In this document: one piece after another, positions 5,312 to 14,368 of the stretch
Numbering within the stretch: the stretch's first letter is position 1
Layout: each line of letters begins with the position of its first letter
From: Alphaproteobacteria bacterium
Lineage (GTDB): Bacteria; Planctomycetota; Phycisphaerae; UBA1845
Assembly (NCBI GenBank): GCA_028285105.1
Contig: JANQQE010000030.1
Span: 1 to 64,000, forward strand
DNA length: 64,000 nucleotides
Direction: 5' to 3'
Program-made: the position numbers and the translations under genes
The notes under the pieces: generated by a model
What the model saw: only the letters and a program-made list of their open reading frames with translations
The model's database searches: none
Told to the model about the DNA's origin: nothing

Positions 5312-6124
5312 TCATCCGCTTGACTTCGCCTCATGCGCGGACTTTGAACCCAATAGCACCTTGGTGTTCGGATGATTCTTTCGCCATTCGCCGAGCGAAA
5401 CCGGAGCGGGTTCCGCAAGAAATGAAATGGTTTCGCCTTTTCTCTTTCCGCTGATTGCCGTCCACTTCTCGTTGTCAAGCGGATACCAGAGACTTTGGGT
5501 CTTGTAGTCGTAGATCAGGAATACATCCTTGTAAACAAACCCGCTGACGCCAAATGAATCATTCTTGCCGTTCGATTCGCGTCCGTGAACCACGGACAGT
5601 TTGGCCAACGGTCACCATCCGACCGTTACGGGCTTACCGCCAATCGTATCGTTGACCAACTCATGCCGATCGAGCAGGGAAATCGGGTAGGCCCGAACAT
5701 CGTCACCTTCAACCCAACCAATTACCATAATGTCTTCCACTGTCTCGGGGCGCTCGTCCTTTCGGTATGGACTGACCGGGACACCCATGAGTCGCTTGTC
5801 GTCGGGGTTAACGTACAAAGGATCGTCAATGGCAACGATGCGATACTTGCCGATTCCAAATTGAAGTTCAGCCGCATCGATGGGCGAACCCGTGAAATCG
5901 TACCATTCTTCCTCGCCGGTTTTGGGATTCGTCCCGCCCCACACATGCGTCTTGTCGCCATCGACTCGAATCTTATTGCTGTCCGGCCCAATGATTCCGC
6001 GGTACGTCGGGGTTGCTTTCGCATCACTTTCTGGTTTGGGCGCATCAGCATGCGAAGTCGTTGGGCTACAAACGAAGATGCCTACAATGATGGCGAACTT
6101 CAGCGCAAGCAAACGCTTGAACAT
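5312..6124 (-). CDS. DUF3179-family protein, candidate selenoprotein with in-frame UGA
   Basis: Read through one in-frame TGA (5614-5612), this is a 270-residue exported protein. A signal peptide (MFKRLLALKFAIIVGIFVCS, then PTTSHA) is followed by a domain that I recognise as DUF3179: RAYPISLLDRHELVNDTIGG, KPVTVGW, then the TGA, then PLAKLSVVHG and, further on, FGVSGFVYKDVFLIYDYKTQ and SLWYPL...EWRKNHPNTKVL. In DUF3179 proteins the TGA position is normally a Cys (the C of a YCPL or WCPL motif), so the codon fits selenocysteine (residue 171). Both halves are in the same frame with no gap and the downstream half is conserved, which argues against simple decay. A perfect hairpin follows the TGA. 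The start at 6124 is set by GAGGAG eight bases upstream. Function of DUF3179 is unknown; a redox role is inference. The alternative is a nonsense mutation. Confidence 0.75.
5581..5597 (-). promoter_or_regulatory. Candidate bacterial SECIS hairpin
   Basis: On the minus strand, GUCCGUG-GUU-CACGGAC forms a perfect 7-bp stem with a 3-base loop, extendable by one U-G pair. It starts 14 bases after the UGA, so the loop begins about 21 bases after it, within the distance usual for bacterial SECIS elements, and the loop begins with G. It lies inside the coding sequence, as bacterial SECIS elements do. No bulged U was identified. Confidence 0.6.
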
Positions 6125-6217
6125 GACCACACTCCTCAAAAAATCGCCCGGGACATTCGACAAGGATAGAGCTGATGGCTGACGAAGTCTAACCAAGCTT
6201 GACCTCAATGGATGAAT

Positions 6218-7258
6218 CTACCAATCCAATCCAAGAAAAAGGCAGTTCAGACCGCTGCCAATTCCGCAGAAACCGACCCGGTGACCCGCTTGCAGGAATC
6301 CGCGTTCGTCGGCCATCGCTGCCGTCATGGGTAGCGATGCCGTCCCGATGTTGCCGAGGTGCGAGAACGTCACATAGTCGCCATCACTTGGGAATTCGAA
6401 TGCTTTTAAGATCGCGTTGCGATGCCATGAACCGACTTGATGGCACACAATACGATCGGGCGCGTTTTCATTCCAATCCAGGAGCGTCTTGAATTCGCGC
6501 CATGTTTCCGCGCCCAATTTGACGCCATGTTCCAATACGGCGGCTGCATCGGTTTCCATTTCCATCGGTGCGTTTGCAGATACACCCGTTGCAGGCCCCC
6601 ATCGACATAGATGGTGAAAACTCGGTGCGCTGCGGGCAACACCACCAAGCAATCTGTGTCCTTCTTTACCGAATGAATCGTCGGTCAGCAGCACCCCAAC
6701 CGCCCCGGAACCGCCCGTCATCGTTGCCAGCGATTTCTTGAATTTCACTGGGTCGGGGTTATCGAGCAACCGCTTGATCGTGACCTCTACGATTTCACGG
6801 GCCGACTCGCATGCCACGACCAAACCGGCTCGCGTTTGTCCCAGTTCGATCGCGTTTGATACTCGAACCATTCCGGACAAGACACCTAGACACGCACTTG
6901 AAACGTCAAACACCTCAGCCGCCGGACCCACGCCAAGATTGTCGGCGGCTGCACATGCTGTTGCGGGCTCGAGGTTGTCCCGACAAACGCCAGCGTAAAT
7001 GAAGATACCGATATCGGAAGGTGAAACGTTCGATTGATCGAGTGCTTTCTTGCCAGCTTTTGCGGCGGGAACCCAGATGGGCAAACCCGGTTCCCAAAAA
7101 CGCCGTTCGGTTACACCGGTCAGACGCTCCAGCTGGCCGCGGCGCAGGTTGTACGCCTCGTACAGCGGCGCCAGATCCTCTTCAAGTTCTGACGATGTGA
7201 CCACGTTGGGTGCGAGTTCGTACCCGATGGAAGCTAGCTTAACCTTGTTGTATCGCAT
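6218..7258 (-). CDS. OleA-like beta-ketoacyl synthase III
   Basis: This 346-residue thiolase-fold enzyme resembles OleA, which joins two fatty acyl chains head to head to give a beta-keto acid, more than ordinary FabH. Visible support: ERRFWEPG, then CRDNLEPATA with Glu97 matching the OleA general base, the catalytic Cys123 in FDVSSACLG, His273 in CHQVGSW, Asn303 in HLGNIGTASLP, and the closing GIGSGLNCLFLGLDW, a signature end of OleA. It lies 27 bases after pfaC on the same strand and is probably the last gene of the pfa operon. The inferred job is to condense or offload the polyene chain made by the Pfa proteins. No oleB, oleC or oleD is in the window. A plain KASIII that primes the synthase is the alternative. 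Confidence 0.85.
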   Translation of the reverse strand: MRYNKVKLASIGYELAPNVVTSSELEEDLAPLYEAYNLRRGQLERLTGVTERRFWEPGLPIWVPAAKAGKKALDQSNVSPSDIGIFIYAGVCRDNLEPATACAAADNLGVGPAAEVFDVSSACLGVLSGMVRVSNAIELGQTRAGLVVACESAREIVEVTIKRLLDNPDPVKFKKSLATMTGGSGAVGVLLTDDSFGKEGHRLLGGVARSAPSFHHLCRWGPATGVSANAPMEMETDAAAVLEHGVKLGAETWREFKTLLDWNENAPDRIVCHQVGSWHRNAILKAFEFPSDGDYVTFSHLGNIGTASLPMTAAMADERGFLQAGHRVGFCGIGSGLNCLFLGLDW

Positions 7259-7285: not shown

Positions 7286-10200
7286 CTACTGACCATCCGA
7301 CACCAATGATACGCCAAAATCGACCATTTCGTAAATGGTGATTCCGTCCACACTCAACCAACCATTGGCCCGAACCGTGGGCGATGAACCTTGCCCGTCT
7401 CCAGCTTCGATCGCAATGATGTCGGCGATGACCTCAACGCGATGGTTGGCTGGTATGATTTGTCCACGATACGACCAAGTGTGCTTCGCGCCAACGATAT
7501 TCGGCGTGAAATGACAGTTGGATACAACGTCCGACCCGAATCGCTCGATGGCTACGATTTTCAACAATTGCAACATCGATTCAAGCCCGAGCGAACCGGG
7601 GCACACCGGATCCTGATAAAAGTGAGCCGCGAAGAACCACTCATCGGGATCGACATCCTTCGAGCCTTGTATCAAACCCAGACGTTTCGACCCGCCATCG
7701 GGAACGTAGAGATCGACCCGGTCGATCATCTGAAACGCCTTGCCTGGCAGCATCGCTCCTTTGGCGGGAATCGTCGCAGATTCGTTCGGCGTATGCGGGG
7801 CACAGGGTTCCACAGCAACTGAGATGGCCCGAGATTGTTCGGAATCTTCCGGTACGTGGATTTTGTTTTTGGGATCGGTGATACCGACTTGTCGAGCGAG
7901 GGCTTCCTTGGTGAAGAAACCGAACGCAGTATTGCCATCGTAGATAGTCTGCTCGCCCTGCCAGACTTGCATGTCGAACTTCTGGATGAGCATTCCGCCG
8001 GCTTTTGATACTTGGGTCATTCTGGCGCGAACGGTAAGCGTCCCCGCATCTGGGAAGACTTCGCAATATAGCGTTGCGTCACCGTCAAGATTACGGAACT
8101 TCAAATCCTGTTCGTTGGCCAACGCCGAGCCCTTGTATGCAGCCAACCATCCGCACGGCTGAAGCGCGATCTCGAGCAAGACGGCGAAGGGCATGCTGCG
8201 CTGGCGGTTCGCGCCGAAGTACCATGCATCTGTCGGCACGTCGTATTGGGTTTCAATCCAACCGTTCGAATTCAATTCCCATGGTTCGGCATGGACTTCC
8301 GTTACGCGGTCGAGGAACTGAAACGGTGGTCCTGGCAGGCGAGCGATGCGCCGCTGCTGGTCGAATATTTTGTAGCGATCGCCGAACGCCTCGGAAGGGT
8401 TGCCAACCGAAAATGCAAGAATGCGATCGTAGTCAAAGATGGCCGGCTTGGGATTCACAGACATTGCGATCTCACCGATGGGCGTCACCGCGATCTGCTT
8501 TTCATCGTTTGGTTCAATGGGGCCATGGGCAGCAGACCAAAGTTGCGTCAATTGTTGCTGCGTTGTCCCGGTTAACTTCAATGACATATCGATGAAGCGC
8601 ACAATCTTTTCGCCATCGCCATACATTAGGGCATCGGCAATCACATACGGTTCCGGACCGTATCCCATCTCCTTAATGTGCAATTCGTAGGTAACCACCT
8701 TGGTCGCCCGCGTCACGGGGCCGCGACACCTAAGCGCACTCGAAACACCGATCACCGGTTCATGGGCGATCGAGTCATGTTCCGCCACCCAGCCAATACG
8801 CATCAGGAAAATCCGCAGCGTCTGCACGCAGCAGTCGTACATCAGTGTGCCTGGCATCACCATGTCGTCCACAAAATGGCACGTCAGGAACCAGTCGTCG
8901 GGATGAATGTCGGCTTCTGCGCGGATGAGGCCCTTACCGAAACGACCGCCACCTGTATTCAATTCGGTGACGCGATGAACCAGACGCATCTTGCCCGAAG
9001 GCAATCGAATCGGATCGTTCACCGGTAGCCCAACAAACGCCTCGCCAAAACACGCGGCAAGATCGCCCGCCCGCAACGCATCGACTTGCTGCTCGTCGTA
9101 CGATTCAATGTCACGACATGGCACCAGTTCGTCGAGGCCGTCTAGCGGTACACCCGGTTTGTCGGCCAACTCCTCAGCCGTCTCGATGATACCGCCCGAT
9201 CCGCGAATCTCGGCTTCAGTAAAGAACCCCGCACATCCGCCGGACATGCTCAGAAGCGGCTTGCCGTTGATTGTGCCTTCAAAAGCGAAGAAGAACAGGT
9301 ACGTCTCGCCCTGTTGCACGAATCGGTCGATGCGGATGTCGTAGCGAATCACTTCACCCGGAACCGGCAGACCGCGATGAAACTTCACGGTTGCATCGAG
9401 CAGGCGATACGACCGCGTGCCTTTTACTGCGTGGTCGATGCCAAGGTATGAACAGAGGAACAGGTCGGCTTGTCCCGATTCGACGGTGATCGAAATCGGC
9501 ATCCGCCCGCCATCGAGATACCAATCCCCGGCATTCACATCCTTTTCGGTCACCACCCTGCCACCACCGAGCGATCGCTTGATGCCTTCAACTTGCAAGA
9601 TGCGATCGACGAGCATCAGCGGCTCATCGGGCAGGCGAACACGCACCGGATATTGATCGACCACTGCGAAATCCGGGCCGAGTACATTTGCGACTTGACC
9701 GATGGCAAACTCCATGCACTTGGCGCGATCGAACGCGACGGGCACTTCAGGAGTCATGACTTCAGTTGGCGGTGTCACAACGTTATCGCTGACTGCATCT
9801 GCGTTGCCAACACGTTCCGGAATCGCCACGCCGGACATCTGGCTCAACAATTCCTGCCGCGTGGTCAGCGCTTCGGCAAGATCGGTCATGGCCGTTTGCG
9901 AGAAACGCAGAAACGCATCGTGGGCGTCGGTCGTGGCTTTGTTCGTTGCCGCCATCGTGGCAATCAGTTGATTTTGCATCGAGTCCTCGACACTTGATGG
10001 TGAATCGTCTGCCACCTCGGTTGTTGCCAAAGCGGGCACGGTCGGTGCTGGCGGTGTTGATTTAATATGATCTGGGTTAATGGATTGACGACTTGCCGAT
10101 TCGAATGGCGTTGGCGTTGCGACCGTTGACTTGACGGGTCTCGGTGGATCATACTTCGGTCCGCCCGTCGCAATGGTTACAACCGGTCGGTCAGCAGACG

Positions 10201-13200
10201 TCGCCCGTTCTGCGCGCCTGCCATCCGACAGGAAAATGCCATCGAGATTTTCATTGACGCCATGCGCAATCAGTGCTGCAATCAGATGCATCAGTGGCGT
10301 TCGTTCGTCGTCGGCCTGCCCACTTGCAGAAGCTGCGAAATAGTCGCGCTTCCCCAGGATGCTGCGAACCATGCGCGTGCAGGTCGCCTGCGGACCAACT
10401 TCGACAAAGTATCGCACGCCATCTTCGTAGGCCTGCTCGATCAACTTCGCGAAATCGAATCCGTCGGTCGCCTGCGCAGTGATCGAATTGGCCGCCGCCT
10501 CGCGCGTTACCTCATATGCCTTTGCCCACGCCGCACTGTAAAACCGAATACCCTGCGGAACGGTCGTCTCCAGTTGATGCAACTCGCGGTATTGATCGAC
10601 GACATCCTGAACCACCGGGCAATGAACGGCTGACGCTCCGGATAGTTCGACGCCTTCGCAACCCAGCGCGGCGATCAGACGTTCAACCTGTTCACGTTGT
10701 CCACCGACCACGCATTCACCCGGCGCGTTTACAATGAGCAGATACGCTCTGTCGAAATCTGCAAGGGCTGCGCGCACGCGATCAGATGGTTGGTTCAATG
10801 CAAATACGGACCATGCCACGGATTCGCTTTTACTTAGCTTCCAATGACGCGATGCTGCACTGCACTTTCCTGCCAACTCGGTGGCGAACAGGGGCGACTT
10901 CGTCAGACGGTCGGCCATCGCATCGCGGTCGGGCCATACACCGAGTGCGATCAAGCTCGTCGTTTCGCCGAGGCTATACCCAATCGCCGCGTCTGGACGG
11001 ATGCCCGCATCTTGCAGAATCTCCGTCACCAGCGAACCGTACGACACCTGCGACATGATCGTCCGCCGCGTGTCTGACGAAAGTTCGGTGTACGCTTGCC
11101 GTTTCCAATTGCCCGCGTAATCAAGCCGGCGAGGCATCACCCATTGGGGCAAAAACTGATCGAATCGCCCATCGAGTCGCTGCGCAACGCCCGGCCAATC
11201 GAGAAGATGCTGCCTTCCCATGCCCACTTGATGCACACCGCTTCCGGGATAGACCAATGCAAGCTTACCGCCGTCGATTCGCTCGGGCACATAGTAAGCA
11301 CCCAGGTCACCATTGATCGCTTTGGTGGTTTCAGATTGAATTCGCGCTTTGGTAGAGGCGATCGATGCACGCAACGATTGAATATCGCCAGCGACGATGG
11401 CAACAACCTTATCGCCCGATCGATTTTTTTCCTGATTTTCGTGCCAAAATTTGCCCAAGCTGGAAATGTCGCCCGCACGATCTTCGATCATTCGATCCAA
11501 TTCGCTGAATCGATGGGACAGATCAGCGACTGTCGATCCATTCAAACAAAAAACGGTCGCCATCGCATCACATTGACGTCGATGATTGACCGATGTTGGG
11601 GAGGCATCTGCTTCTTCCAATACCACGTGAGCGCACTCGCCGTGAAACGAAATACCGCTGACGCATGCGCGGCGAGGGCCTTGCGATCGATTTCGCAACC
11701 AGGGCTGACATTGTTTTGCGACGAAGAAGTGCTTCGATTGAGTCAGCGCTTTGATCGGTTGACCGAATTCCGCAATGGGTGCGATCGATTGTTTGTGCAA
11801 ACTCAACGCAGCGCTGACTACCGATGCCAGTCCCGACGCAGCGTGGGAGAATCCAACCGTCGAGGCTGAGGACACGATCGCGCACTGTAATTCGCTGTCC
11901 GACAAATGCGAGGATAGCGCTTCCGCCTCGATCGCATCGAATCCAGGCCGCCCTGCTCCTGCGACTTCAATGACGCTTACGGAATTGGCATCGACGCGAG
12001 CATCTTGATATGCACGCTCAAGCGCCGATACATATGCGTACTTTGAAACCTGTCCCGGTGGGTTTCCACTGGCGAATCCGAAACCCTGCAATTCTGCGTA
12101 TCGACGAACGGCCGATGCATCGTCAGATCGCTTCAACACCATCGCCACCGCCCCATCGCTTGGCGACGTACCTTTCGATTGGGCGTCCATGGGCGTGACG
12201 TGTTGCTGCTCGACATAGATTCCGCGATCTCCTAAAACGCGCCGCACGTCGCACGACAGATCGACCGCACCGATCACAACGCCATCCAACTCACTGCGTT
12301 CGAGCATACGAGCGCCGAGTTCTAGTGCCCGCAATCCGGAGTTGTCGTCAGCCGACATCGTCAGGCTCGGTCCGCCAATTCCGAACTCACGGGCGATGCG
12401 ACTTGCGACCATGCCGCCAAGCGAACCCACTACGCGCCCGGACGTCAGTGGCGGACTGGCTTCGTTTTGCAGATCAGCGACCCACGCATCGAAATCATCA
12501 TCAGATAATTCCAAACCCAGCGTCGCCGCCCATCCACGGGCAAGTTCGGGAATCGCCCACCGCAAATGATAGTTCGACGCATTCGCATCGAGCGACATGC
12601 CAATGATGCAGCCGAATCGCGGGCCCAACGCACTTCGCGAAATGCCCGCATCGTCGAGCGCTTCGGCGACGACCTTGAGCATTAGCATCTGCTGCGGTAA
12701 CGACTCGCGAATCTCAGCCGGCGGAACTTTGAACTCGCCGATCGGCACGCTGACGTTGTCGATAAACGCACCGTTTACGCCATCAAGTTGATCCGACGAA
12801 TCGACGACGCCGCGCCAACGCTCGACAGTTCGATGGATCGTTGCATTCGCACCGGAGAAAATCGCTTGCTCGAATTCGTCGATCCCAGCGATCGATCCGA
12901 AGTATGCCGACATTCCCACGATGCTGGCTGATGATTTCACCGGCATCGCTGACGGCGCAGTCGAAGCCTTTCGCGTTTGAGCCCCGTTGAATTCTTCGAG
13001 CAGCAAATGAGCATTGATTCCACCGAAACCGAACGCACTGTTCGCTGCCCGTCTGGGCGTTTTGGAATCGCGCAGCTTCCATTCCGCAGGTTCGGAAATC
13101 ACGCGAAACGCACTCGATTCAATATTGAGTTTCGGCGAAGGGGTTTCAAAGTTTGCAGATGGCGGCAGCGTTTTCGCGTTCATCGCCAAGATCGTCTTGA

Positions 13201-14368
13201 GCAGTCCGGCGATGCCTGCACCGGTCAGCAAATGCCCGACGTTCGACTTGACCGAACCCAACACACACTGCCCCGGCGACCACTTGTCGTTGGACCAAAG
13301 TTCGCAAAGGCTTCCAAATTCGACCGCATCTCCCAACGGAGTGCCAGTGCCATGACACTCGACCACATCCACATCCGAAGGCGACCAGCCGCTCTGTTCA
13401 TACGCCTGACGCATCGCCCGAAGTTGCCCTTCGGAATCTGCCGCGAGCAAACTGCCTGCAACATCGTTCGACAGACCGACGCCGCGAATCACGCCGTATA
13501 CCCGGTCGCCATCGCGAACCGCATCATCAAGACGCTTGAGCAGCACCGCCCCCGCACCCTCACCGACCATCAGTCCATCGGCGGCAGCATCGAAAGGCCG
13601 ACATCGACCACTTCGCGAAAGGGCTCGAAGCTGCGTGAAACCGGTCTGCGTATAAAGGCAGTCGGGTCGATTCACCCCACCGGCTAACATTGCATCGGCG
13701 CGGCGAGCATGAAGTTCGTCGCACGCGAATTTGACCGCGTAGAGACTCGACGCACACGCCGCGTCCAAAGTGAAACTTCCGCCGCCCAAACCCAGCCCGG
13801 CACAAACGATTCCGGCAGGCAACCCGACCGCGCGGTGGTTGATCGGATGGGTTTCGCCTTCGATTTGCGACCCGCGCACGGTATCTTCGCCCAGCAAGCA
13901 TTTCTCAAACGAGCGTCCCAACGTCTCGCGCGTCAATGCCGATGTCGCATCCGTCGGAAGTGCAATCGCCGCCACCACCGCGCCGATGCGACGCGGATCA
14001 ATCGACGTGATATTGCAGTCTTGTAGCGCCGCCCGACTGGCATGAAGAATAAATTGAAACGTTGGATCAAGCTTGCTCAAGAGTTCGGAGGGGAGGCTGT
14101 ATCCGGTGGGGTCGAATGCGAAGTCATCGATGTAGCAACCGCGTGAATGAAACGGGCGGTCTTCTGTTAGTTCCGCCGAACAAATCCTCGCGGGTTCAGC
14201 CGCCCAGCGTTCACGCGAAACCTCGCGCGACGTATCGGTTCCGCTTAATATAAGCTCTAAGAATGCATCCAGCGTCGGGGCCTGCGGAAACAATCCGCCC
14301 AGACCCACGATGGCGATGGGCTGATCCTTGAACGCTGATTGTGCGGATGAAGCGGACATTTGCTGCAC
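7286..14368 (-). CDS. pfaC: PfaC-like PUFA/secondary lipid synthase (KS-CLF-AT-DH-DH)
   Basis: A 2360-residue iterative synthase subunit. Order of domains: ketosynthase (1-450; PIAIVGLGGLFPQ, active Cys in LDAACASS near 200); a second KS-like domain (about 490-900) in which the active-site Cys is replaced (LTMSADDNSG near 668), i.e. a chain-length factor; an acyltransferase (about 1030-1330; LVYPGSGVHQ and active Ser in GYSLGE near 1130); a linker; then four hot-dog modules in two pairs. In each pair the first lacks and the second has the FabA-type His (CHFVDDMVMPG near 1830, AAHFYQDPVCPG near 2245), so they form two dehydratase/isomerase units. The GTG at 14368 follows the pfaA stop directly; ATG at 14359 is an alternative start, and neither has a clear Shine-Dalgarno. 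The arrangement matches myxobacterial pfa3, minus a C-terminal acyltransferase. The product is inferred only. Confidence 0.9.
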   Translation of the reverse strand: MQQMSASSAQSAFKDQPIAIVGLGGLFPQAPTLDAFLELILSGTDTSREVSRERWAAEPARICSAELTEDRPFHSRGCYIDDFAFDPTGYSLPSELLSKLDPTFQFILHASRAALQDCNITSIDPRRIGAVVAAIALPTDATSALTRETLGRSFEKCLLGEDTVRGSQIEGETHPINHRAVGLPAGIVCAGLGLGGGSFTLDAACASSLYAVKFACDELHARRADAMLAGGVNRPDCLYTQTGFTQLRALSRSGRCRPFDAAADGLMVGEGAGAVLLKRLDDAVRDGDRVYGVIRGVGLSNDVAGSLLAADSEGQLRAMRQAYEQSGWSPSDVDVVECHGTGTPLGDAVEFGSLCELWSNDKWSPGQCVLGSVKSNVGHLLTGAGIAGLLKTILAMNAKTLPPSANFETPSPKLNIESSAFRVISEPAEWKLRDSKTPRRAANSAFGFGGINAHLLLEEFNGAQTRKASTAPSAMPVKSSASIVGMSAYFGSIAGIDEFEQAIFSGANATIHRTVERWRGVVDSSDQLDGVNGAFIDNVSVPIGEFKVPPAEIRESLPQQMLMLKVVAEALDDAGISRSALGPRFGCIIGMSLDANASNYHLRWAIPELARGWAATLGLELSDDDFDAWVADLQNEASPPLTSGRVVGSLGGMVASRIAREFGIGGPSLTMSADDNSGLRALELGARMLERSELDGVVIGAVDLSCDVRRVLGDRGIYVEQQHVTPMDAQSKGTSPSDGAVAMVLKRSDDASAVRRYAELQGFGFASGNPPGQVSKYAYVSALERAYQDARVDANSVSVIEVAGAGRPGFDAIEAEALSSHLSDSELQCAIVSSASTVGFSHAASGLASVVSAALSLHKQSIAPIAEFGQPIKALTQSKHFFVAKQCQPWLRNRSQGPRRACVSGISFHGECAHVVLEEADASPTSVNHRRQCDAMATVFCLNGSTVADLSHRFSELDRMIEDRAGDISSLGKFWHENQEKNRSGDKVVAIVAGDIQSLRASIASTKARIQSETTKAINGDLGAYYVPERIDGGKLALVYPGSGVHQVGMGRQHLLDWPGVAQRLDGRFDQFLPQWVMPRRLDYAGNWKRQAYTELSSDTRRTIMSQVSYGSLVTEILQDAGIRPDAAIGYSLGETTSLIALGVWPDRDAMADRLTKSPLFATELAGKCSAASRHWKLSKSESVAWSVFALNQPSDRVRAALADFDRAYLLIVNAPGECVVGGQREQVERLIAALGCEGVELSGASAVHCPVVQDVVDQYRELHQLETTVPQGIRFYSAAWAKAYEVTREAAANSITAQATDGFDFAKLIEQAYEDGVRYFVEVGPQATCTRMVRSILGKRDYFAASASGQADDERTPLMHLIAALIAHGVNENLDGIFLSDGRRAERATSADRPVVTIATGGPKYDPPRPVKSTVATPTPFESASRQSINPDHIKSTPPAPTVPALATTEVADDSPSSVEDSMQNQLIATMAATNKATTDAHDAFLRFSQTAMTDLAEALTTRQELLSQMSGVAIPERVGNADAVSDNVVTPPTEVMTPEVPVAFDRAKCMEFAIGQVANVLGPDFAVVDQYPVRVRLPDEPLMLVDRILQVEGIKRSLGGGRVVTEKDVNAGDWYLDGGRMPISITVESGQADLFLCSYLGIDHAVKGTRSYRLLDATVKFHRGLPVPGEVIRYDIRIDRFVQQGETYLFFFAFEGTINGKPLLSMSGGCAGFFTEAEIRGSGGIIETAEELADKPGVPLDGLDELVPCRDIESYDEQQVDALRAGDLAACFGEAFVGLPVNDPIRLPSGKMRLVHRVTELNTGGGRFGKGLIRAEADIHPDDWFLTCHFVDDMVMPGTLMYDCCVQTLRIFLMRIGWVAEHDSIAHEPVIGVSSALRCRGPVTRATKVVTYELHIKEMGYGPEPYVIADALMYGDGEKIVRFIDMSLKLTGTTQQQLTQLWSAAHGPIEPNDEKQIAVTPIGEIAMSVNPKPAIFDYDRILAFSVGNPSEAFGDRYKIFDQQRRIARLPGPPFQFLDRVTEVHAEPWELNSNGWIETQYDVPTDAWYFGANRQRSMPFAVLLEIALQPCGWLAAYKGSALANEQDLKFRNLDGDATLYCEVFPDAGTLTVRARMTQVSKAGGMLIQKFDMQVWQGEQTIYDGNTAFGFFTKEALARQVGITDPKNKIHVPEDSEQSRAISVAVEPCAPHTPNESATIPAKGAMLPGKAFQMIDRVDLYVPDGGSKRLGLIQGSKDVDPDEWFFAAHFYQDPVCPGSLGLESMLQLLKIVAIERFGSDVVSNCHFTPNIVGAKHTWSYRGQIIPANHRVEVIADIIAIEAGDGQGSSPTVRANGWLSVDGITIYEMVDFGVSLVSDGQ

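Follow-up and report, generated by a model that had tools for sequence, protein, structure and literature searches.

A predicted DUF3179 selenoprotein from a mostly planctomycete branch in which selenocysteine lacks a partner cysteine

An in-frame TGA in a DUF3179 gene

In a 64,000-nt stretch of DNA from a bacterium of the Phycisphaerae lineage (hereafter the window), a DUF3179 gene carries a TGA at 5614-5612 of the reverse strand, in the midst of its reading frame, and the question raised by this locus is whether the codon ends the protein or is read as selenocysteine (Sec). The first-pass annotation, made from the letters of the window, had favored Sec. It placed the TGA where DUF3179 proteins have the Cys of their CPL motif, described an unbroken frame on either side and a perfect 7-bp hairpin with a G-starting 3-base loop 14 bases past the TGA, and expected standard gene callers to split the gene. 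These descriptions are borne out by the sequence. The frame 6124-5312 (-) translates without interruption except at this codon, whose context is TIGGKPVTVGW-U-PLAKLSVVHG; the hairpin, in which GTCCGTG pairs with CACGGAC around the loop GTT, lies exactly where it was said to lie; and the standard ORF list gives pieces of 198 aa and 98 aa in place of a single protein (Table 1). In a Pfam search, the full translation matches DUF3179 (PF11376) with 99.8 bits over residues 130-260, exceeding the gathering cut-off of 27 bits, with the match spanning only positions 24-150 of the 292 in the model; no NCBIfam model matched the protein. The signal-like N-terminus suggests that the protein is exported.

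Table 1. Features of the DUF3179 locus in the window
Feature	Position	Strand	Basis or remark
Predicted selenoprotein gene, DUF3179	5312..6124	-	Single frame with one internal TGA; 270 residues plus terminator TGA
Start ATG	6124-6122	-	Sequence
Probable ribosome-binding site, GAGGAG	6132..6137	-	Sequence; 7 nt before the ATG
Signal-peptide-like N-terminus, residues 1-26 (MFKRLL...SPTTSHA, then DA)	6047..6124	-	By eye from the sequence; relatives have similar hydrophobic N-termini
UGA codon 171, predicted Sec	5612..5614	-	TGA in 31/31 close homologues; Cys codons at this column in other phyla
SECIS-like hairpin, bacterial type	5581..5597	-	Stem 5597-5591 with 5587-5581, loop GTT 5590-5588; covariation and synonymous-recoding control
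Terminator TGA	5314-5312	-	Sequence

Conservation of the UGA column and of the downstream hairpin

An ordinary stop would make this locus a split or decayed gene, or else the TGA could be a sequencing error; the two-part ORF list is what such a reading expects, and the window genome (4.81 Mb, 97.8% complete) is a draft in 36 contigs. Against this, the same internal TGA was found in all 31 close homologues from 60 related genomes, which were assembled independently, and TGC or TGT in none of them. The two nearest homologues, 80% and 75% identical to the window protein, both carry it, so that the concern raised at the outset, a plain Cys codon in close relatives beside an inactivated copy here, does not apply. 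A scan of named genome contigs returned homologues mainly from Planctomycetota/Phycisphaerae MAGs; records labelled Acidobacteria, Gemmatimonadales, Sumerlaeota, and Thermodesulfovibrionia contained TGA forms as well. Further afield, the column is occupied by Cys, encoded by TGC in Rhodothermaceae and by TGT in Gemmatimonadetes and Bacteroidetes (loci L116, L117, and L138), and likewise in distant members with a CPLC motif. The column therefore alternates between UGA in close homologues and Cys in other phyla, as had been anticipated from the CPL motif. In one homologue (genome G040, loci L041 / L124), an extra in-frame TAG follows the Sec codon, reflecting decay, a frameshift, or an assembly error.

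The reading as an ordinary stop is also opposed by the constraint on the protein sequence before and after the codon. Between the genes of G000 and G002, pN is 0.095 after the TGA and 0.127 before it, and pS is 0.69 and 0.78, respectively; synonymous sites are near saturation in this pair, which leaves the dN/dS ratio itself rough and unusable. As judged from these sequences, amino acid constraint is equally strong after and before the TGA, which also tells against an inactivated copy.

The hairpin downstream of the TGA provides a further line of evidence against a stop. All 7 pairs of the stem form in 30 of 35 homologues, and another 4 homologues form 6 pairs. In the covariation set (34 sequences), 98.3% of the cells are paired and 4 of the 7 pairs show two-sided changes: the outer stem GTCC/GGAC is replaced by GGCC/GGCC in G050, by GGCT/AGCC in G018, and by GATC/GATC in the paralogues with a WUPSEQ motif. 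The covariation score of 0.236 compares with 0.112 for shuffled alignments (sd 0.015; reached by 0 of 500), a comparison inflated by kinship, and with at most 0.155 for slid versions of the stem, which retain the kinship and yet score below the real stem. When the same peptide was recoded with local codon usage, 7/7 pairs arose in 1.4% of the trials (P 0.014), and the minimum free energy of the hairpin, -17.3, was reached by 2.4% of the recoded versions, both figures referring to the single window gene. The hairpin exceeds chance expectation. Taken together with its conservation and covariation across homologues, this is the outcome that a bacterial SECIS element had been expected to give. In the WUPSEQ subfamily, the stem differs in sequence (GATCGTG) and is intact; other selenoprotein-like DUF3179 subfamilies, of the WUPSEQ or WUHLC type, were seen at L056:3698-4447 (-), L057:3896-4492 (-), L060:3966-4631 (-), and L063:3275-4339 (-).

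Selenocysteine machinery and the reading of UGA 171

The window genome contains the complete set of genes for Sec incorporation, the absence of which had been named as another ground for abandoning the proposal. A tRNA-Sec scores 67.7 bits, above the Rfam cut-off, and is called by ARAGORN as tRNA-SeC with anticodon tca; selB is present with selA directly after it, and selD carries an in-frame TGA of its own, in the motif CAGUAGK. Three related genomes (G027, G033, and G037; 90-99% complete) have neither a tRNA-Sec match nor a full SelA match, and none of the three has a match to the window gene. Several genomes that do carry the gene show no tRNA-Sec match; most of these have selA, and the missing tRNA is most simply explained by an assembly gap or by loss in filtering. 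The selD gene of the window genome (L048:1501-2424, corresponding to C23:120945-121868) makes its selenophosphate synthetase a probable selenoprotein too.

The window gene is, on this sequence evidence, very probably a real selenoprotein gene with UGA 171 read as Sec, because the UGA is conserved, Cys forms share the same column, the hairpin covaries, selection acts on both sides of the codon, and the Sec machinery is complete; each computable check came out in favor of the interpretation. An ordinary stop or a sequencing error appears highly improbable. A genome-wide reassignment of TGA, e.g., to Trp or Gly, would equally place a TGA inside an open frame, and is scarcely credible given that the window gene and several of its orthologues terminate with TGA, that tRNA-Sec, selA, selB, and selD are all present, that the column alternates with Cys and never with Trp or Gly, and that the hairpin is conserved. 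In the reading as a selenoprotein, SelB and Sec-tRNA(UCA) would decode the UGA at codon 171, aided by the hairpin just downstream, and the product would be an exported, mostly beta-strand DUF3179 protein of 270 residues. Standard annotation splits this gene throughout an entire branch within the Planctomycetota.

A known selenoprotein family and a branch with its own motif

DUF3179 (pfam11376) has been catalogued as a prokaryotic selenoprotein family with the motif UxxC/T (PMC9312934, PMC13188914). Both sources are reviews, and for DUF3179 selenoproteins they cite Zhang and Gladyshev 2007, whose study concerned the symbiont of Olavius algarvensis. In RefSeq, a plasmid record likewise calls its product "DUF3179 domain-containing (seleno)protein." The remark in the first-pass annotation that some members are labelled as possible selenoproteins was hence correct, and since such proteins are already catalogued, the finding is less novel than that annotation implied. 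The class of finding is known; the motif of the branch and the missing partner Cys are new.

Like the catalogued members, the window protein has the same Pfam domain, a UGA replacing the first Cys of CPL, and a SECIS-like hairpin after it. Unlike them, it has UPLA in place of UxxC/T and no other Cys in its mature chain. A departure from UxxC/T is the rule among the Sec forms: at position +3, the 53 Sec forms have A (27), V (9), S (6), D (6), E (3), C (2), and T (0), i.e., A/V/S/D/E in 51 of 53, whereas among the 31 Cys forms this position is C in 27. In a quick tree from 133 columns, the window protein falls in a branch of 48 rows, of which 46 are Sec forms, separated from the rest with an SH-aLRT of 98; the motif of this mostly planctomycete branch is UPL(A/V/D/S). 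The closest Cys counterparts are the CPLA forms of a Rhodothermaceae (L116) and a Gemmatimonadetes (L117) record, which are 46-55% identical and share the single-residue motif without a partner Cys, the difference being TGC or TGT there and TGA in the window gene. The first tree nests these two rows among the Sec forms, as a possible Sec-to-Cys reversion in these lineages would; an AU test, however, did not reject the Sec forms as one clade (p 0.68), and it was the tree with this constraint that had the higher score.

A probable lone selenol

From residue 41 onward, 28 of 30 aligned proteins, the window protein included, contain no Cys. The mature chain being devoid of Cys, Sec171 cannot form an internal selenenylsulfide, and a CxxC-type mechanism is therefore excluded for the branch. 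For proteins with Sec as the sole chalcogen residue of the mature chain, this rules out the CxxC/CxxU chemistry that is usually assumed; to complete its chemistry, Sec171 would need a further partner, either an external thiol or bound metal(loid). Other strongly kept residues include His154 (90/92), Asn158, Asp206, and Trp213 (92/92). We consider it more likely than not that the reactive group is Sec171, working as a lone selenol and perhaps with the conserved His154.

The AlphaFold model is confident and mostly beta (pLDDT 91.9, pTM 0.83). Foldseek against the PDB gave no significant match (best E 0.18), and a sequence search of the PDB returned nothing useful (best E 0.59). At first glance, the model could suggest a Rieske-like domain with Sec in place of a cluster ligand, since Rieske ferredoxins head its structural matches (Z 5.0 over residues 140-244). 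The spacing His154-x16-Sec171-Pro-Leu also resembles Rieske motifs, and serves as a lead only. Under closer inspection, the fold similarity is weak, as a Z near 5 may reflect just a common beta arrangement, the best Foldseek E of 0.18 falls short of significance, and in the aligned ranges Sec171 falls before the Rieske ligand loops. The ligand motifs CxH and CxxH are both absent from the window protein sequence, and a comparison of its profile against 28 Rieske domains yields a probability of about 1%, leaving the idea unsupported at that level; a Rieske-like role is very unlikely. Among viral structures, the sole significant match to the DUF3179 model is an uncharacterised giant-virus protein of Indivirus ILV1 (BFVD A0A1V0SD44; E 1.4e-6).

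Linkage of DUF3179 genes to arsenosugar loci

Several Sec forms adjoin a gene for a TIGR04283 arsenosugar glycosyltransferase, and some have ArsS (TIGR04167) or an ArsM-like methyltransferase in their vicinity. Using the genome-wide positions of arsS and TIGR04283 genes in the same 60 genomes, we found 10 of 49 DUF3179 genes within 5 kb of such a gene, with about 0.2 expected when kinship is ignored. By form, these are 6 of 35 Sec forms (0.14 expected from random positions) and 4 of 14 non-Sec forms (0.03 expected); within 20 kb, the counts are 7 Sec forms and 4 non-Sec forms. As a control, with 65 Rieske-domain genes as targets, 1 of 39 DUF3179 genes lay within 20 kb. Further arsenosugar-linked loci were present among the named contigs (L094, L100, L125, and L137), and the linked members are spread over several separate branches of the tree, these being raw counts that ignore kinship. 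At the level of whole genomes, arsS is present in 15 of 26 genomes with a Sec form versus 6 of 34 others (Fisher P 0.002, kinship ignored).

Three genomes (G030, G047, and G056) encode a fusion of Cys-form DUF3179 to AhpC/TSA at about 300 bp from arsS. Like the window protein, these fusions have a DUF3179 domain, and their CPL motif aligns with the column of Sec; they differ from it in having CPLC with Cys and no Sec, a longer DUF3179 part, a C-terminal redoxin, and a place in an arsenosugar locus. DUF3179-AhpC/TSA redoxin fusions were seen in all at L043, L058, L066, and L062 (genomes G030, G047, G056, and G057). In the open-licence papers searched, where absence is not proof of novelty, we found no description of a DUF3179-arsenosugar link, nor any paper connecting arsenosugar to selenoproteins or to clustered arsS/arsM genes.

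Possible roles

The protein could be a periplasmic enzyme of peroxide/thiol redox chemistry in general, without being tied to arsenic in particular, in which case linkage to arsenosugar genes would be a property of certain relatives only. This is a realistic possibility: arsenosugar genes adjoin neither the window copy nor most orthologues of that type, and the AhpC/TSA fusions indicate redox chemistry broadly. Against it stands the linkage itself, which recurs far above expectation in several separate branches and, at G044, L094, and L100, in members of the same type as the window copy. As the most likely biological role we tentatively propose, from the relatives only, the handling or reduction of thiol-reactive species, particularly organoarsenicals, given that family members are found repeatedly in loci for arsenosugar biosynthesis and as AhpC/TSA fusions. 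More specifically, DUF3179 might be a component of organoarsenical (arsenosugar) metabolism, with the present branch acting extracytoplasmically as an exported mono-selenol of a kind not yet characterised, which we regard as somewhat unlikely. The linkage and the redoxin fusions of the relatives nevertheless offer a first concrete, testable role for this domain of unknown function. An arsenical role would apply to at least part of the family, and is weakest for the window copy because that copy lies outside an arsenosugar cluster, with the arsS of its genome on another contig (C10), and because no TIGR04283 gene was found in the window genome.

The neighbors of the window copy are genes for KAS III, a PUFA-type synthase, and a sensor kinase; this arrangement is common to the genus only, and we set it aside as a functional clue. 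Directly upstream of the selenoprotein gene lie the KAS III gene, 6218-7258 (-), and then the PUFA-synthase-like gene, 7286-14368 (-), in an order that is again genus-specific. The domain matches of the latter comprise two ketosynthase, one acyltransferase, and four FabA-like domains.
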